This document shows, piece after piece, positions 24,894 to 37,540 of a DNA stretch of 52,778 bases. Both the position numbers and the translations under genes were made by a program. The stretch comes from a virus, in IMG/VR virus record IMGVR_UViG_3300008117_000215, positions 1 to 52,778 of that record. The stretch is one strand, 5' to 3'. The notes beneath the pieces are model-generated. The model saw only the letters and a program-made list of their open reading frames with translations. It did no database searches and was not told where the DNA came from. The number at the start of each line of letters is the position of its first letter. Position 1 is the stretch's first letter.

Positions 24894-26877
24894 ATTCGCT
24901 TAGTTTTTCCCTTTCACTACCACTGGCCTTCTGCCACCAATAATGTCCGTATTTTTTCTTTAAGTTGTCTATATACTGGTCTTTGGTCTCACTGCGAACC
25001 TGCTCACCCTTGTTGGCAATCTTCTCCTGAATGGTCTTATATCCATACGAACCATCACTGTTCTTGGTAAGAATAACCTTGCTCCTATACCTCACCTTCT
25101 CCTTCCTCTCCACAGGCTTGTCGAAATTGGGAACGCTTATCATGAATATCAAAAACGCATCTCGTAAATCCGCGTTTTCATTCTCACCCATCAACAACGA
25201 TTCCAACAACAACCTGCTCTTGATATTCGCACCATGCTGACGAAGGAACATATTCGCCTGCCTAACCTGCCACTCCCTGGTATGCTCGTTGATGGCACTG
25301 CCCCTCTTCTTGGTATTTATATAACCCTTTCCGGACAAATCCTTTCTCTTATACGCATACTGGTACAGATTGTTCTTCTCCAAAAAAGTACCGAAGTGGT
25401 CGCCCGTTGAAGCATTCACCTCATAATTTATCTCCTTCCCACCACCATATTGATTGTAGAAATTCCATTGCATAGCCATCTGCCTATAACCATCCTCAAT
25501 CGTATTTGGCCTCTCATAATATATGGCAACCGGAGTGAACGAACCACCATCCGGATCCCAACCCTTGAATATGATACAACCTATCCAAGACCCCCTCTCT
25601 CCACCTTCCCTCCTACCTGTACCGATACCGTCAATGGCCTGGTAATACATAACACCCTTCTTAGGCATCTCAATGATCCAATGACCCCCATCCTTCTCCT
25701 TGGCTCTTTTAACCGAATCAGGAACGGCCTCGACACCCGAACCCGTATTTATCATCCTGTAGGCAACCTCAGGATTCCTTTCCGATAACAACTGCTTATA
25801 TGTATGTCCAAGCAAATCGGCCACATCAGGCTCGAAAAATCCACCCTGTGACAAATCGAATATATCCTGCTCGTCCTTTGGATACTGCATCCGAAAATCC
25901 CTCAACCCCTTCACATCACCACTCTCCTCAAAACGCTTGTAGTTCTCCCAATACCAATCCATACCCGCCTTCTCATCACTCCATCCGTTCTTGCTTATCA
26001 ATCCCATCCATACAGGAACCATCTCGCTTCGCACATTCAAATTCTTACTCCTCTCAATCAAATCGTAAAACGCAGCAACCTGGTTCGGAGTCAACTTCGG
26101 CTCAACCGTACCTGCAATCACCAATAATCCCGTCCTATCAATCCCCTTACTAATCGCAGGAAAGATAGACCCCAAAAAATCCTCAACCCTGCTATGCAGC
26201 GGACCTTCGTCCACATACACATACTTATACCTTCGACCCGACAAGTTCGTAGGACTGTCTGGCTTCTCGCTCGTCTCCTTACAGAACAACACACTCGTCC
26301 TTAACTCCTCGGTACTTATGTTCTCGTTCCATACCTTCAGACTCACCTCCAAGCTCGTTACATTCTTGGTATTGTTCATCTGCACAGGCTTGGTGTTAAA
26401 TACAATCGGATTGAACCTATTATAGCTGAACAGCACCTTGTCGTTGAACATACCGTTGATACCGTCGTTACCCTTACCACTGGTAAGTCCAATCCTGCAT
26501 CCGGGATACACCTTCATGAACCAATACGGCAGATTCGCAAATACCGAAGTCGCCCCAACCTCACGTCGCTTATATACAAGCAGACTCTGGCCTGACTCCA
26601 TACATTCATCAACCCACTGGAACATCAACTCATCCACATCCCTCCACGCAGGACGAAAAACATTTCCATCAATATCATTCAGGAAACACTCCTGCAAATA
26701 GAAGTAATGCGCCCCGGTCAGACCGGCATGACCCTCAATCCATCTCCTATTCTGCTCCTCCCAATACTTGTCCTCCTCCAGTTTCGGATGCTTCATGGAA
26801 GCGAAGTCCGGAACCGGCTCGTATACCCACTTGGGCGGTGGAGGGTCAAACCCTTCAGAATAGTTCGGCTTTCGCAT
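24880..26877 (-). CDS. terL: Terminase large subunit, 665 aa
   Basis: The ATPase/nuclease motor packages DNA into proheads. Residues 103-110 (KRREVGAT) form the variant Walker A loop, and 219-224 (YVYVDE, Asp223/Glu224) the Walker B and catalytic carboxylate. The C-terminal half begins its nuclease domain with QAIDGIGTGRREGG, and DLRDAFLIFMIS near residue 570 offers a further acidic site. Length is typical. The gene overlaps the methyltransferase C terminus by 23 bases. No small subunit is recognisable; the 130-aa gene at 30780-31172 is only a positional candidate. Confidence 0.93.
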   Translation of the reverse strand: MRKPNYSEGFDPPPPKWVYEPVPDFASMKHPKLEEDKYWEEQNRRWIEGHAGLTGAHYFYLQECFLNDIDGNVFRPAWRDVDELMFQWVDECMESGQSLLVYKRREVGATSVFANLPYWFMKVYPGCRIGLTSGKGNDGINGMFNDKVLFSYNRFNPIVFNTKPVQMNNTKNVTSLEVSLKVWNENISTEELRTSVLFCKETSEKPDSPTNLSGRRYKYVYVDEGPLHSRVEDFLGSIFPAISKGIDRTGLLVIAGTVEPKLTPNQVAAFYDLIERSKNLNVRSEMVPVWMGLISKNGWSDEKAGMDWYWENYKRFEESGDVKGLRDFRMQYPKDEQDIFDLSQGGFFEPDVADLLGHTYKQLLSERNPEVAYRMINTGSGVEAVPDSVKRAKEKDGGHWIIEMPKKGVMYYQAIDGIGTGRREGGERGSWIGCIIFKGWDPDGGSFTPVAIYYERPNTIEDGYRQMAMQWNFYNQYGGGKEINYEVNASTGDHFGTFLEKNNLYQYAYKRKDLSGKGYINTKKRGSAINEHTREWQVRQANMFLRQHGANIKSRLLLESLLMGENENADLRDAFLIFMISVPNFDKPVERKEKVRYRSKVILTKNSDGSYGYKTIQEKIANKGEQVRSETKDQYIDNLKKKYGHYWWQKASGSEREKLSEYDKG

Positions 26878-29655
26878 CGTTTATCCTTTGTCCAATCCAT
26901 CTCATACACGGAACAGCCATCGAGTTTCCACATGCCTTATACCTAGGGCCGTCAGGACAGTCTTCGATAGGCTTGTTCTTCCAAGGAATCAGCGTCCAAT
27001 TATCAGGGAACCCTTGGAGTCTTTCACATTCCAATGGGGTAAGTCTGCGGATGGCCATAGGCTGTTGGGCATATATCGCCTTTATCTCATCAATGGCTTC
27101 CATAGATGAACCTCCCCTACTTCCCTTGCATTGGGTTATGGTCGGACTGATATTAGGCATCATCACCTTGGCTCCACTTGTATTTGTTCCACCTACCGCT
27201 TCGGTAATAGTAGCCGCAACTTGCCCATCAATCGCTTGATTATACACATCCACGGCCATAGGTGGAATCAATACCGCATTGGTATTCGTGCCATGTTGTT
27301 CCCTAACAATACCCATGACATTCCCAGTTGTTTTTTGATTATACACATCCACGGCCACAGGCTCCTGATACACCCCATATGCATCACAACCACTCCTCAA
27401 GGTAGGACTCAGTTCCTGCTCAATACCCAATCCGTGTGCTTTGCTGCCCTGGGTAGGTAGGAAACCGAACGAAGTCAGAACCACATTGACGGCCCTCACA
27501 TCACCCTGGTCGAAACAGTTCAATGTATTAATCACCTCGTCACGCTTCCATGTCTCGAAATCATCCGCACTCTTCGCCCTGCGAACCTTTCGATACGCTA
27601 TCTGCTGGTCTTGAGAGGCGGCAATGGTGAAAGCCAACTCATCGGAACCGAGGTATCCTTTTCTGGCAGCCTTGCCAGGTGTGCCTCCATACTCGCCAGT
27701 CTCGGTAGGAGAACCTCCACGGATCTTGAAGGCATGGGCAACGGCATGCACATCCGACTTGGTCAAGGTATACATCGTACCATCGACAGACGCACCCATG
27801 CCTTGCGGACCACCACTGTCCCTTCCAACCAAATTGCCTTGGATGGAGATGGGTTGGGCGACCCCTTGCGTAGCATGGGTATCTATAGTATATGCTGTTC
27901 CATCATCATTCCACCCCTTGCCATTCTGAGCCTTGTCGCGCGTAGTCACATCCTGAATGGCTATCGGTATCGCCACACCATGTGGTCCACTCTTGATGAG
28001 CGTCGGTGTCGTATCAGACTGCTCTATACCAGGGTCCCGGTCGAAATCAAATCCCGCATTCATGGCAGAGCGGTCAATGACCGTAACAGCATGCGGCCCC
28101 CTAGCCACCAACGATGGCATGACCTGCGACTCTTCAATCTTGATGTCGTATTGGGCATTCTCACCCTGGTTGAACGCCGCCCGGTCAATCACCGTAGGTG
28201 TCAACACAGCTCCAAAGTTATCCTTGTCAGGCATGTACTGGCCACCACTCCTAGTAGTCACGGTCGATTCCGTCTGGTCTCCGTTCCACCAAGCCGATAT
28301 CGCAAGTCCCCTACCCTCATGGATGGAATCCGTGCTAGGACCCTTATAGTCCCTAGCCCTCAACGTGCCAACAGTGTCGGCTCCGTTAGGACTCATCCAT
28401 TGGCTACCGACTCCAACGCCATCCTCAGTTGATCCGGCAGCTGCTTGCCTCTTTTCTCGGCTCGGCGCAGGATGCCTTGACACGCTTTCTGACTCAAATA
28501 AAACCTTTGCGGCACTTCCCCTGTTTCCAAAGTTTCCGATAACAGACGTCGTACGTTCGGCTTGTTTGATGAAATCATCATACGGGAAAAACCCGTCCAT
28601 TTCGCTAAATAATTTTCCACTTGTTTTTCTCGCATAATTCGTAAGTTCCGTTTGAAGTGTTAAAAAAGACAATATTGTGCTTGACGAGTTTGGGGACAAT
28701 CCGCTCAAACGACATATGAGCCGACCTATGGCTTCCCCTATCTGGAAAAACATACAGATTCTCGATTCCATTATTTCCCTTGTCAAAGTCGATGTGGTGT
28801 ACAATCTCATCAGATCGTAAAGGTCGTCCAATGCTTTGTTCAACGATCCTTCTGTGAGTGTAGACTGGCCGTCCTGATTCAAACCCAACAATAGGTCTTC
28901 CAGCGTGAGTTCCTTTTCGCTCTTTCCCCCACTTGGCAAATCCCAATTTCTTGACTCTGGTGGAAACTTCTGAAAGACATCTACCAAGAGCTGTTGCCAA
29001 TTCCTGTAGTTGCAGTTTTCCGTAAGCAGACCGAATAACCTCATCCTCCTCTCCACTCCATCTCTTGATTGGCTGACTGACTCCGATTTTAGCGGCTCTC
29101 TTCCGTATACTTTTAAAGTTTCTACCAAGATGACGTGCAATATCTCGGCTAAACATTGTGCGATAGTTAGCGCGGATAAAATCGTCTTCTGACTCAATAT
29201 AGTTTCTACGCTTTGGGCGCATACGAATACCCTTTTTCTTCTTTGTGCGACTCCGAAATTTTGTGCATCCAAAATTTCAACATCACAAACATAGCCTATT
29301 TCTTCCAAGCCGTCAAGGAAAGATTCAAAATCCTTACCACCATTGGACGATAAAACACCTGGTACATTCCCAGAAAAGTCAGCATAAGATTTCCCCTTGG
29401 GTCTTTCAAACCCTGCCTCAATCCCGCTACCGAGAAAGACTGACACGGTGTACCACCTACCAATAGGTTCACCTCCGTATCGGGCCAAGACTCATATTTA
29501 GTCATATCCCCCCAGTTCGGGACATGTGGGAACCTGTGTTTCAGAACCGCACTGGGAAACGGTTCTATCTCGGAGAAGGCAACGGGTTGCCATCCCATAT
29601 CGTGCCAAGCGACACTGGCGGCTTCGATGCCACTGCAAACGGATAAGTATCTCAT
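26855..29655 (-). pseudogene. C5 cytosine DNA methyltransferase, frameshifted by deletion and interrupted by an HNH gene
   Basis: The N-terminal frame (29655-~29367) carries motif I (VCSGIEAAS) and the catalytic PCQ at 70-72, reaching GNLMLTFLG. The rest lies in another frame, 29366-26855. It resumes with NVPGVLSSNGGKDFESFLDG and GVAQRRKRVF, then has motif IX/X at the C terminus (RRLTPLECERLQGFPDNW; RYKACGNSMAVPCMRWIG). The block normally between LTFL and NVPG, including the ENV glutamate, is missing. The target-recognition region holds about eight related modules with repeated VIDRS/VDVYNQ-like phrases, as in multispecific phage enzymes. An HNH gene occupies 28605-29222. Probably inactive unless a recoding event occurs. 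Confidence 0.85.
28605..29222 (-). CDS. HNH homing endonuclease nested in the methyltransferase gene, 205 aa
   Basis: Residues ~1-95 contain two Myb/HTH-like repeats (each with basic RDIARHLGRNFKSIRKRA-type helices). HNH residues follow: EIVHHIDFDKGNNGIENLYV (His142, His143, Asn150/151) and RGSHRSAH (His165/169). The ATG overlaps the methyltransferase V89 codon, exactly where the conserved sequence breaks off. The enzyme sits in a different frame from the interrupted gene, whose frame stays open throughout. Free-standing HNH enzymes often insert into conserved phage genes. Confidence 0.88.
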   Translation of the reverse strand: MRPKRRNYIESEDDFIRANYRTMFSRDIARHLGRNFKSIRKRAAKIGVSQPIKRWSGEEDEVIRSAYGKLQLQELATALGRCLSEVSTRVKKLGFAKWGKERKGTHAGRPIVGFESGRPVYTHRRIVEQSIGRPLRSDEIVHHIDFDKGNNGIENLYVFPDRGSHRSAHMSFERIVPKLVKHNIVFFNTSNGTYELCEKNKWKII

Positions 29656-33938: not shown

Positions 33939-34661
33939 ATGTTTAATAAAAAAAACAGAATTATAAAAAACTGTAAGGTATGTAATGCCTCTTTTGATAT
34001 ACAAAAATCAAAAGAAAACAGAGTATTTACTTGTTCAAAAGAATGCCAAAACAAAAACAAATCTAATCAAAGGATAGGCAAAAAACACAATATAAAACCC
34101 AGATATAAAAACTGTAAAAGATGTGGAAACCAATGGCAATTAAATGGTGAAAAAAAAAGATATAGAAATAAATACTGCTCATCAAAATGTCAAAATGACG
34201 CCCAATCTGAAAGATTAAAAGGGGAAAAGTCTAATTTTTGGAAAGGAGGAAAATACAATACAAATAAAAGATCAAAATATTCAAGGGAAATATACAAATG
34301 GAGGAATGCTGTATTAAAAAGGGATAATTATAATTGCAAACATTGCAACTCGAATATTAATCTTGAAGCTCATCATATAATACCATGGTCAGTATCTATT
34401 GAAAAAAGATTTGACATAGATAATGGTATTACATTATGTATAAATTGCCATGGTAAAGTACATGGATTAGATTTTAAAAATATTAGAAAAAAAACTAGAG
34501 AATTTATATTTAAAAAATGTATTGATTGCGATTCTATTATATATAAAAATAGTACTAGGTGTATTAAATGTTATTACATTGCAAGAAAGAAAAAAATAAT
34601 AGTAAATAGAGTTATAATTGATGCAAAATCTAAAATCATCGATAATAAAACACCTTATTGA
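33939..34661 (+). CDS. AT-rich HNH homing endonuclease, 240 aa
   Basis: Two CxxC zinc-ribbon-like segments at 12-36 and 59-84 (KNCKRCGNQWQLNGEKKRYR...YCSSKCQ) are followed by a helical linker and the HNH core EAHHIIPWSV (His145, His146), Asn162 and CINCHGKVHG (His171). A third CxxC pair closes the protein. Its codons are very A/T-rich with long A-runs, unlike the C-rich primase beside it, a sign of recent transfer. It seems a mobile insertion between replication genes. Confidence 0.88.
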   Translation: MFNKKNRIIKNCKVCNASFDIQKSKENRVFTCSKECQNKNKSNQRIGKKHNIKPRYKNCKRCGNQWQLNGEKKRYRNKYCSSKCQNDAQSERLKGEKSNFWKGGKYNTNKRSKYSREIYKWRNAVLKRDNYNCKHCNSNINLEAHHIIPWSVSIEKRFDIDNGITLCINCHGKVHGLDFKNIRKKTREFIFKKCIDCDSIIYKNSTRCIKCYYIARKKKIIVNRVIIDAKSKIIDNKTPY

Positions 34662-34974: not shown

Positions 34975-37149
34975 ATGAGCCAAATATCCCTGTTCCCAAA
35001 CGCATACGCAACCGAACCATCAGCCATGCTCGCCATCAGCGAACTGCTCGATGGCATACGCAACGGCAAATGGGCCGAACAAGTCGAAGCCGTCCGCTCT
35101 TGTGAGGACAAGGACTCCCGCGACACCGCCAAACGATCCGTACCGTGCGTGACCGTCAGCGGCGTGTTCACCAAACGCAACCAATCGTCCCTGGTCAAAC
35201 ACTCAGGATTCATCTGCATCGACATCGACACCGAATGCAACCGAACCGCACTGGCACTGGACCCGTACACCTACGCCCTGTTCGACTCGGTCAGCCGCCA
35301 AGGCGTGGCCATCATGGTCAAAGTCAAACCCGACAAACACAACGAATCCTTCGACTGGCTCCAACAATACTACTTCGACACCTACGGCGTAGTCATCGAC
35401 TCCAAACCACGCAACATCGTATCACTTCGGTTCGTATCGTATGACCCGGACCTGGTCGTCAACGAGTCCAGCCGAACAGCCAAGACCAAGGCACGCCGTG
35501 TAGTAGTACCCAAGTCCCTACCCATCGTATACACCGGTGACCAAATCAGCCAACTCGTATCCGACGCCGTAGCATCCGGAGTCAGCATCGCCGAATCCTA
35601 CGAAGACTACCTCAACCTCTCCTTCGCCCTGGCCGACGAACTGGGCGAGTCAGGCCGTTCACACTTCCACTCGCTCTGCTCCATGAGTGCCAAGTACTCC
35701 ACCGAGCAGGCCGACCGACAGTACTCCATCGCACTGCGCCGTGACACCACCGGACGCCGTGTCACCATCGGAACCTTCTACCACATGCTCAAACAGGCAG
35801 GCGTGACACTGCCCAAGACCAACCGAGATCTCATAACCCTGGCCGCAACAGCCAAGGCATCGGGCGAAGACGTGGCATCCGTACTGTCCAGCAGAGGCGA
35901 CCTGTCAACCACACAAGCCGAATCCATCGCACGGAGCGTACAGTCCCGACCCGATGTGACCCTGGCCACCCTCGCCTCAGACCCCGAACACCTGATCGAA
36001 GGCCTTATCATGTTCATCAAGACCAAGTACCCGGTCAAACGAAACGCCGTAACCCACAAACTCGAGAAATCCCGCTCCGGCGAAGCCCTCCTCGAAGAAG
36101 ACATCAACGACATCTACCTCAACGCCAGAGCCGTGTTCAACACACCCAACGTCACCAAGGACCTGGTCCAGACCATACTGTTCTCCAACCAAACCCCCAC
36201 CTACCACCCCATCAAGGAGTTCATCGCCAAACACCAATCGGTACAACCAACCGGTGTCATCGATACCCTCATCTCCTGCGTTCGTACCAATACCCCACAC
36301 GCAGCCAACTGGATACGCAAGTGGCTCATCGGCATACACGCCGCCATAGACGGATACCCCGTGCGGTCCATGCTCGTTTTCACCGGCCCCCAATACAACG
36401 GCAAAACAGAGTTCTTTCGTCGGCTACTGCCTAACTCCCTTCGGTCGTACTACGCAGAATCCAAACTCGACCGAGGCAAAGACGATGAACTGCTCATGTG
36501 CCAGAAACTCATTGTCATGGACGACGAAATGGGTGGCAAATCCAAACAGGACGAGAAACGCCTCAAAGAACTTACCTCCAAAGACACCTTCTCCCTTCGC
36601 GCACCATACCGTCGGGACAACATGGACTACAAACGCCTAGCCGTCCTGTGCGGTACTTCCAACCCTAACGAAGTCATATCCGACCCGACCGGCAATACCC
36701 GTATCCTTCCAATAAAAGTGGAATCGATAGACTTCAATCGTATCAATGCCATTGACCGAGTGGAACTCTTCATGGAAGCTTACCACGCATACGCATCAGG
36801 CGAAACATGGCTCCTGTCCACCGACGAGGTCAATCAACTCGGAGACGTGTCCGATGACTTCACCTCCATCTGCTACGAACGAGAACTTATCCTCCAATTC
36901 TTCTACCCCCCCGACGGATCAGGACACATCGACTGGCTCACCGCCACCGAAATAAAAAATGAAATAGAAATCAATACCAAACAACAAATACGACATATGG
37001 CCAAGTTCGGTATCGAACTCCGTAAACTATTCGGCGATCCCAAAACAAAACGGAAAGGACCAGCCATGGTCAAGTGCTATAATGTGGTAAGATGTGGTAA
37101 GACCACTTACCACACTTTTCAGCCTGATAATCAATCACCTCCGTTCTAA
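34975..37149 (+). CDS. Primase-helicase with BT4734-like N domain and VirE/D5-type helicase, 724 aa
   Basis: Residues ~50-165 match the BT4734-like domain that accompanies primase-helicases (TVSGVFTKRNQSSLVKHSGF then ICIDID). ~190-330 is a linker. The C-terminal helicase has Walker A GPQYNGKT (471-478), Walker B LIVMDDE (512-518), sensor asparagine in CGTSNPNEV (561-569) and the arginine finger in GNTRILPI (R576). This VirE-like superfamily-3 layout is common in Bacteroidetes phages and elements and initiates replication. The coding strand is strongly C-rich. The gene ends inside the first iterons, consistent with acting at the adjacent origin. Confidence 0.9.
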   Translation: MSQISLFPNAYATEPSAMLAISELLDGIRNGKWAEQVEAVRSCEDKDSRDTAKRSVPCVTVSGVFTKRNQSSLVKHSGFICIDIDTECNRTALALDPYTYALFDSVSRQGVAIMVKVKPDKHNESFDWLQQYYFDTYGVVIDSKPRNIVSLRFVSYDPDLVVNESSRTAKTKARRVVVPKSLPIVYTGDQISQLVSDAVASGVSIAESYEDYLNLSFALADELGESGRSHFHSLCSMSAKYSTEQADRQYSIALRRDTTGRRVTIGTFYHMLKQAGVTLPKTNRDLITLAATAKASGEDVASVLSSRGDLSTTQAESIARSVQSRPDVTLATLASDPEHLIEGLIMFIKTKYPVKRNAVTHKLEKSRSGEALLEEDINDIYLNARAVFNTPNVTKDLVQTILFSNQTPTYHPIKEFIAKHQSVQPTGVIDTLISCVRTNTPHAANWIRKWLIGIHAAIDGYPVRSMLVFTGPQYNGKTEFFRRLLPNSLRSYYAESKLDRGKDDELLMCQKLIVMDDEMGGKSKQDEKRLKELTSKDTFSLRAPYRRDNMDYKRLAVLCGTSNPNEVISDPTGNTRILPIKVESIDFNRINAIDRVELFMEAYHAYASGETWLLSTDEVNQLGDVSDDFTSICYERELILQFFYPPDGSGHIDWLTATEIKNEIEINTKQQIRHMAKFGIELRKLFGDPKTKRKGPAMVKCYNVVRCGKTTYHTFQPDNQSPPF

Positions 37150-37404
37150 AAATCCAATTTGTGGTAATGTGGTAAGTACTTTCCTATAAATTACCCGGAA
37201 CAAAATATTTTTTTTTCAATAAATCCAACTATTATTGATTATCAACTATATATGTATATATGCGTATTTTATATATATATATATACTAATTAATGAATTT
37301 TACTTACCACCTTACCACAAAGTATATAATGTATTACATATCAATGCGTTTGGCGTGGTAAGTATGTAACATTTTCTACTTACCACACCTTACCACGTTA
37401 CCAC
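37084..37404. repeat. Probable replication origin: eleven GTGGTAA iterons around an AT-rich core
   Basis: GTGGTAAG (or its complement CTTACCAC) occurs exactly at 37084, 37094, 37106, 37169, 37303, 37311, 37355, 37379 and 37389. One-mismatch copies (GTGGTAAT, GTGGTAAC) lie at 37161 and 37397. Copies lie in both orientations. A ~120-base AT-rich segment at ~37177-37300 with a TATATATA run fills the middle, like an unwinding element. Iterons plus AT-rich core beside a replicative helicase gene is the standard theta-type origin layout, and plus-strand base skew flips here. Confidence 0.8.
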
Positions 37405-37429: not shown

Positions 37430-37540
37430 GTGGAGACACATACCACACACGGGTACGCACACGCGCGCCCAGGCACACCCCCCCGGGTACGCGCGCGATC
37501 ACGCACACACACACGCGCGTATATGTGCGCGTATTTGCGT
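37430..37540. repeat. GC/AC alternating purine-pyrimidine tract
   Basis: Immediately after the iterons, ~110 bases of alternating CA/CG-type dinucleotides occur (CGCGCG, CACACACACAC, GTATATGTGCGCG) with a short C-run. Such sequence readily adopts Z-DNA or cruciform forms. No ORF in it looks coding, though a spurious GC-rich frame exists on the minus strand. It probably belongs to the origin or is a low-complexity spacer. Confidence 0.6.

Follow-up and report, generated by a model that had tools for sequence, protein, structure and literature searches.

In replicons of the SaPI Rep-ori type an AT-rich region lies between the iterons, and in geminiviruses a conserved origin layout is combined with diverging iterons that are matched by a variable region of Rep, a rolling-circle protein unrelated to the one described here. 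The primase of phage P4 is of the bacterial Toprim type, and the layout and repeats of P4 are unlike those that we report. For SaPI Rep and for Cch2 of SCCmec, a C-terminal domain has been reported to bind repeats downstream of the protein's own gene (PMC7581432). The alpha protein of P4 binds origin repeats via its winged helix, whereas for pRN1-type proteins, built of an AEP primase, an SF3 helicase and a winged helix, recognition of a stem-loop and no iterons has been proposed (PMC4234260).

The stretch of DNA analysed here (hereafter the window, 52,778 nucleotides), a viral record of IMG/VR, encodes its own portal and terminase, and therefore represents a phage and not a satellite. A second record of 68,218 bases (G001) belongs to the same species, and since the window bridges both of its ends, the G001 genome is circular or circularly permuted; about 15.5 kb of its sequence are absent from the window. 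A nucleotide search of phage records gave no match, and searches of genomes from the family and class of Pedobacter added few further relatives. Relatives of the primase were found in Pedobacter, Chitinophaga, Pontibacter and related genomes, as well as in phages of Cellulophaga, Nonlabens and Flavobacterium, which makes Bacteroidota the probable host group.

The gene of interest (34975-37149, + strand) encodes a primase-helicase of 724 amino acids (P0001; Pfam PF08800, PF08707 and PF05272; phrog_15962; AF2 model with pLDDT 83), which comprises a BT4734-like AEP primase, PriCT-2, a VapE-like SF3 helicase and a C-terminal winged helix. The latter, our candidate reader of the iterons, spans residues 653-706 (codons at 36931-37092, + strand), and its domain model (pLDDT 88.5) shows the order strand-helix-helix-wing, with residue 693 (Arg, codon CGG at 37051-37053, + strand) in the first wing strand. 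By both sequence and fold, the solved structure nearest to P0001 is 7pds, PriRep1 with DNA (7pds_A: phmmer 5e-7, profile 3.5e-13, fold E 9e-14), a vapE-type protein and the staphylococcal SaPI initiator. The sequence similarity covers the helicase part only, and the winged helix taken by itself gives a weak match to 7pds. Searched alone against the PDB, this domain gave no significant match by sequence, and its fold retrieved generic winged helices only, all above the 0.001 limit. The C-terminal domain of the relatives matches Pfam DUF3874 weakly to moderately (8.7e-6 for L402, below the curated cut-off), which suggests that a DUF3874-like domain would gain a job in origin recognition. As for the surroundings, the primase gene has a GC content of 54% and a coding-strand GC skew of -0.25 (about +0.09 in its relatives, which are mostly AT-richer), a gene for an HNH endonuclease (33939-34661) lies directly upstream in a stretch of 29% GC, and a protein of 877 amino acids encoded at 26855-29488 gives several matches to DNA methyltransferase families and one to a primase family.

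The original prediction had counted nine exact copies of an 8-bp repeat within 37084-37404 and two more with one mismatch, and both counts were reproduced: nine exact copies of GTGGTAAG/CTTACCAC fall within 37084-37396, the one-mismatch copies are GTGGTAAT (37161-37168) and GTTACCAC (37397-37404), and a third one-mismatch copy at 37439-37446 (- strand), a possible outlying iteron, sits just beyond. It had also rightly seen more than chance in the 8-mer (13 exact copies in the whole window versus 1.43 expected), a start inside the 3' end of the helicase gene and an AT-rich core flanked by repeats. The first three copies (37084-37091 and 37094-37101 on the + strand, 37106-37113 on the - strand) sit within the last 22 codons of the open reading frame ending at 37149, where they mostly overlap codons of a disordered tail (residues 710-724, pLDDT <50). 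A left tandem array follows, made up of GTGGTAAT and an exact copy at 37169-37176 (both + strand), and then the core at 37177-37302, a putative unwinding element with 82.5% AT versus 55% for the window, which carries an alternating TA tract (37270-37285) near the right array. Right array 1 holds two exact copies (37303-37310 and 37311-37318, - strand), and right array 2 another two (37379-37386 and 37389-37396, - strand) plus the mismatched copy that reads GTTACCAC on the + strand and is oriented to the - strand, with a lone forward iteron (37355-37362, + strand) between both arrays. This array was the sole cluster of its kind found in both the window and the near-identical G001; over 460 bases around it the two records show three differences, none within an iteron. 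Directly after the array, positions 37440-37535 are occupied by a GC-rich alternating purine-pyrimidine tract (CACACGGGTACGCACACGCGCG...GTGCGCG).

We read this cluster, with a probability of about 0.87, as the site where a tailed phage, probably one that infects Bacteroidota, starts its replication; the origin would be bound by the winged helix of the adjacent AEP-primase/SF3-helicase. At the level of sequence, support comes from the array itself, from its conserved geometry, from its varied placement near the gene and from the way in which its sequence covaries with the winged helix and with residue 693, and it is from these that we infer origin activity. GC skew was discarded as evidence for an origin: its minimum at 37.6 kb coincides with the transcription switch, and relatives transcribed in one direction lack it.

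A tally made by hand over 73 distinct relatives placed an array near the primase gene in about 63 of them, 44 with a strong array immediately downstream of the gene, some seven with a weaker one of the same layout and 12 with one elsewhere nearby. The search for relatives that have the primase and lack the repeat was thus mostly favourable to the prediction, although two complete cultured phages of the same primase type, phi46:1 (W02) and P12024L (W03), have no convincing array, and about eight further relatives, partly fragmentary, show no clear array near the primase gene. In the longer records whose primase cluster exceeded the threshold (G001-G003, G010, G015, mumin9-1 and the window), no second cluster was found. 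The common layout consists of a forward tandem array, an AT core of ~90 bp and inverted arrays; it is fixed relative to the stop codon and has about 9 sites per phage, and the repeat sequence varies by group. The aligned iterons read TGTGGTAAG in the window and GGTAGTAAG, GGTTGTAAG, TGTAGTAGG, CTTAATAGG, GGTAACAGA, TGTAACGGG, TGTAACCT and TGCAAGGGT in the relatives. Orientation in 30 phages was 54 forward to 5 reverse sites in the left array, 49 reverse to 2 forward in right array 1 and 51 reverse to 13 forward in right array 2, and a forward site occurs in the zone of the lone iteron in 26 of the 30. Moreover, in 29 of 29 phages the AT content of the core exceeds that of its own locus, and 25 of them carry the alternating TA tract on the right side, and in the TTAATAGG group conservation reaches 0.94 in iteron columns versus 0.85 in noncoding spacer columns. 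The idea that GTGGTAAG defines this phage group had to be given up, as a literal search in the relatives recovered the full cluster only in the same species (G001), with 4 copies in L059; the relatives use other repeats, and what they share is the layout.

The placement of the array bears on the alternative that survives best, which is nonetheless unlikely: an operator array through which the primase-helicase or a phage repressor would control the neighbouring genes, with replication beginning elsewhere. The array does sit where the leftward and rightward gene sets of the window diverge, and initiators are often self-regulating. In the TGCAAGGGT clade, however, where another gene directly follows the primase gene, the whole array, its geometry unchanged, is located ~100-390 bp upstream of the primase start; L036 has its array 0.9-1.2 kb downstream of the gene, and in the cultured Flavobacterium phage mumin9-1 a AGGTAACC array is found 0.6-0.9 kb downstream. 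No fixed promoter fits an array located after the gene in most relatives, before it in one clade and 0.6-1.2 kb downstream in others. Besides, about nine sites around an AT core are more than the usual operator has, a promoter scan gave matches below the number expected by chance, and the domain that covaries with the repeats is part of a primase-helicase.

This covariation was measured as a partial correlation, controlling for the catalytic regions, over 34 relatives less than 90% identical. Iteron distance correlated with the wing (partial r 0.28-0.31, p 0.0005) and with the recognition helix (partial r 0.24-0.28, p 0.0005), and in the same 34 relatives there was no correlation with the primase N-domain or with either helicase half; the middle linker, however, also correlated, with a partial r of 0.27 for a fixed register and 0.13 for the best shift. 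The differences among repeats appear to follow the winged helix, and not the catalytic domains of primase or helicase. Among 4,824 residue-position pairs, the highest mutual information was that of residue 693 and iteron position 1, where the pairings were Arg-T in 20 of 20 loci, Lys-G in 15 of 16, Ser-C/A in 9 of 9 and Asp/Glu-T in 7 of 7; the score for position 1 was 0.64 for residue 693 and 0.29 for the second-best protein column. As the codon of this residue falls outside the iterons, the match is not an artefact of overlap. When a four-state base was simulated 2,000,000 times on the catalytic-domain tree, the observed value was never reached, and corrected for the number of pairs the probability is still <0.003. 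On that tree residue 693 changes ~10 times and the base at position 1 ~9 times; if only well-supported branches are considered, 2-3 independent switches of residue 693 can be counted, with zero disagreement. Apart from 693, enrichment of single residues in the winged helix was not significant (hypergeometric p 0.28 for the top 20).

For this first set, common features had served to fix the iteron register manually. A held-out set of about 90 more loci, most of them with arrays, came from two additional scans that used different queries; for these loci the register was taken from positions 2-8 only and near-duplicates were removed. Residue 693 and position 1 combined there as K/G in 24 loci, K/T in 1, R/G in 1 and R/T in 8, with a Fisher p of 4e-6 that is optimistic because the loci are interrelated. 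Beyond the rule there were three K/C, one K/A and three unclear calls, most with poor register scores, as well as a few loci with other residues at 693. Judged by these loci, the rule mostly held in phages that had played no part in finding it. We lean towards the view, with some reserve, that in this phage family the layout of the origin stays the same and the initiator changes its address by way of a readable code between a wing residue and a base (693: Lys-G, Arg-T, Ser-C/A).

The same data identify the likely reader of the array as the winged helix at the C-terminus of the primase-helicase, and make it very improbable that the origin is read by a separate initiator, either DnaA of the host or a small phage-encoded protein, for example P0002. 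Separate initiators are common at many origins, and P0002 is encoded immediately to the right of the array. Its open reading frame, 63% identical between the window and G001, is nevertheless confined to the same species and not conserved in the relatives, and was rejected as the reader; the closest DnaA-like box is 3.6 kb off, and the iteron sequence follows the primase-helicase winged helix, with 693 matching position 1. Altogether, the predicted origin with initiator-binding iterons beside a BT4734/VirE-type protein has gained strong comparative support, with the correction that the initiator activity is likely to reside in the winged helix of the primase-helicase and not in P0002. Still less credible is a partition, packaging or recombination site: such sites carry clustered repeats, but no partition genes were seen among the genes identified, the terminase gene is 10 kb distant and the array stays with the primase gene across phages of varied surroundings.

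If the cluster is an origin read by the winged helix, this domain would bind the 9-bp iterons in the forward left array and the inverted right arrays, and the arrays would load two facing helicase assemblies (a double hexamer). The facing helicases would then melt the AT core and the TA tract, and DNA synthesis would be primed, the likely order being binding of both arrays, loading, melting and priming. Constant geometry, with iteron sequence and winged helix changing together, would give rise to many replicon specificities.

The closest parallel is the SaPI Rep-ori, including that of PriRep1, with which the window shares a VapE/D5-type self-loading helicase with a C-terminal DNA-binding domain. 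The SF3 helicase is homologous to SaPI Rep, and a C-terminal winged helix is present in the AF2 models, although on its own this domain matches 7pds no more than weakly. As in SaPIs, short iterons lie directly downstream of the initiator gene (PMC7581432), or upstream in one clade of the phages. In contrast to SaPIs, the putative replicon described here belongs to tailed phages whose hosts are probably Bacteroidota, its helicase is fused to a BT4734-like AEP primase, and the window, with its own portal and terminase, is no satellite of a helper phage; its replicon would thus work like that of a SaPI but is not one. Cch2 of SCCmec also has a C-terminal domain and direct repeats downstream of its gene (PMC7581432), but only three iterons of 5 nt and a separate polymerase-primase. 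In P4 alpha, primase, helicase and winged helix are likewise joined in a single protein, whereas the N-terminus of P0001 is a BT4734-like AEP and not a Toprim (DnaG-like) primase. ORF904 of pRN1 and the replication protein of Bordetella phage BIP-1 combine an AEP primase, an SF3 helicase and a winged helix, with the origin downstream (PMC4234260), and the BIP-1 protein also shares PriCT-2 with P0001. An origin of the pRN1 type, with a stem-loop downstream of the gene (PMC4234260) and the repeats as secondary, can practically be dismissed for these phages, which have iterons and no conserved stem-loop, as the 29 cores, with a mean z of 0.05 and no value under -2, contain no unusual hairpin. The comparison with plasmid iterons was apt for the layout, which is similar, but not for the protein, which belongs with the self-loading primase-helicases of SaPIs and P4; P0001-P0004 contain no Rep_3 domain as in iteron plasmids (RepA/Rep_3), and the DnaA-like box is as distant as stated.

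The replicon type is therefore already known from the SaPI Rep-ori and P4 alpha. What appears new, for the residue-level code as far as could be checked, is its occurrence across phages whose hosts are probably Bacteroidota, together with a readable specificity switch. If true, related phages would form many replicon-specificity groups, analogous to the incompatibility groups of plasmids, and phages untouched by experiment would gain a mappable origin with a named candidate reader domain. About 100 natural initiator/iteron pairs would be at hand for studies of how self-loading helicases achieve specificity, and they raise the question of why phages keep changing the address of their origin; co-infecting phages in competition, satellites and host defence are conceivable reasons.

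One further element was seen at some of these loci. In L045, L039 and L070, ~200-250 bp past the primase stop, and also in L031, there is a gene whose product starts with MKG(Y/F)VY and which either lies next to the right part of the array or takes its place. It may encode a homing-type nuclease that settles at the origin; a similar gene beside the primase of L092 (5256-5819) is annotated as a nuclease.
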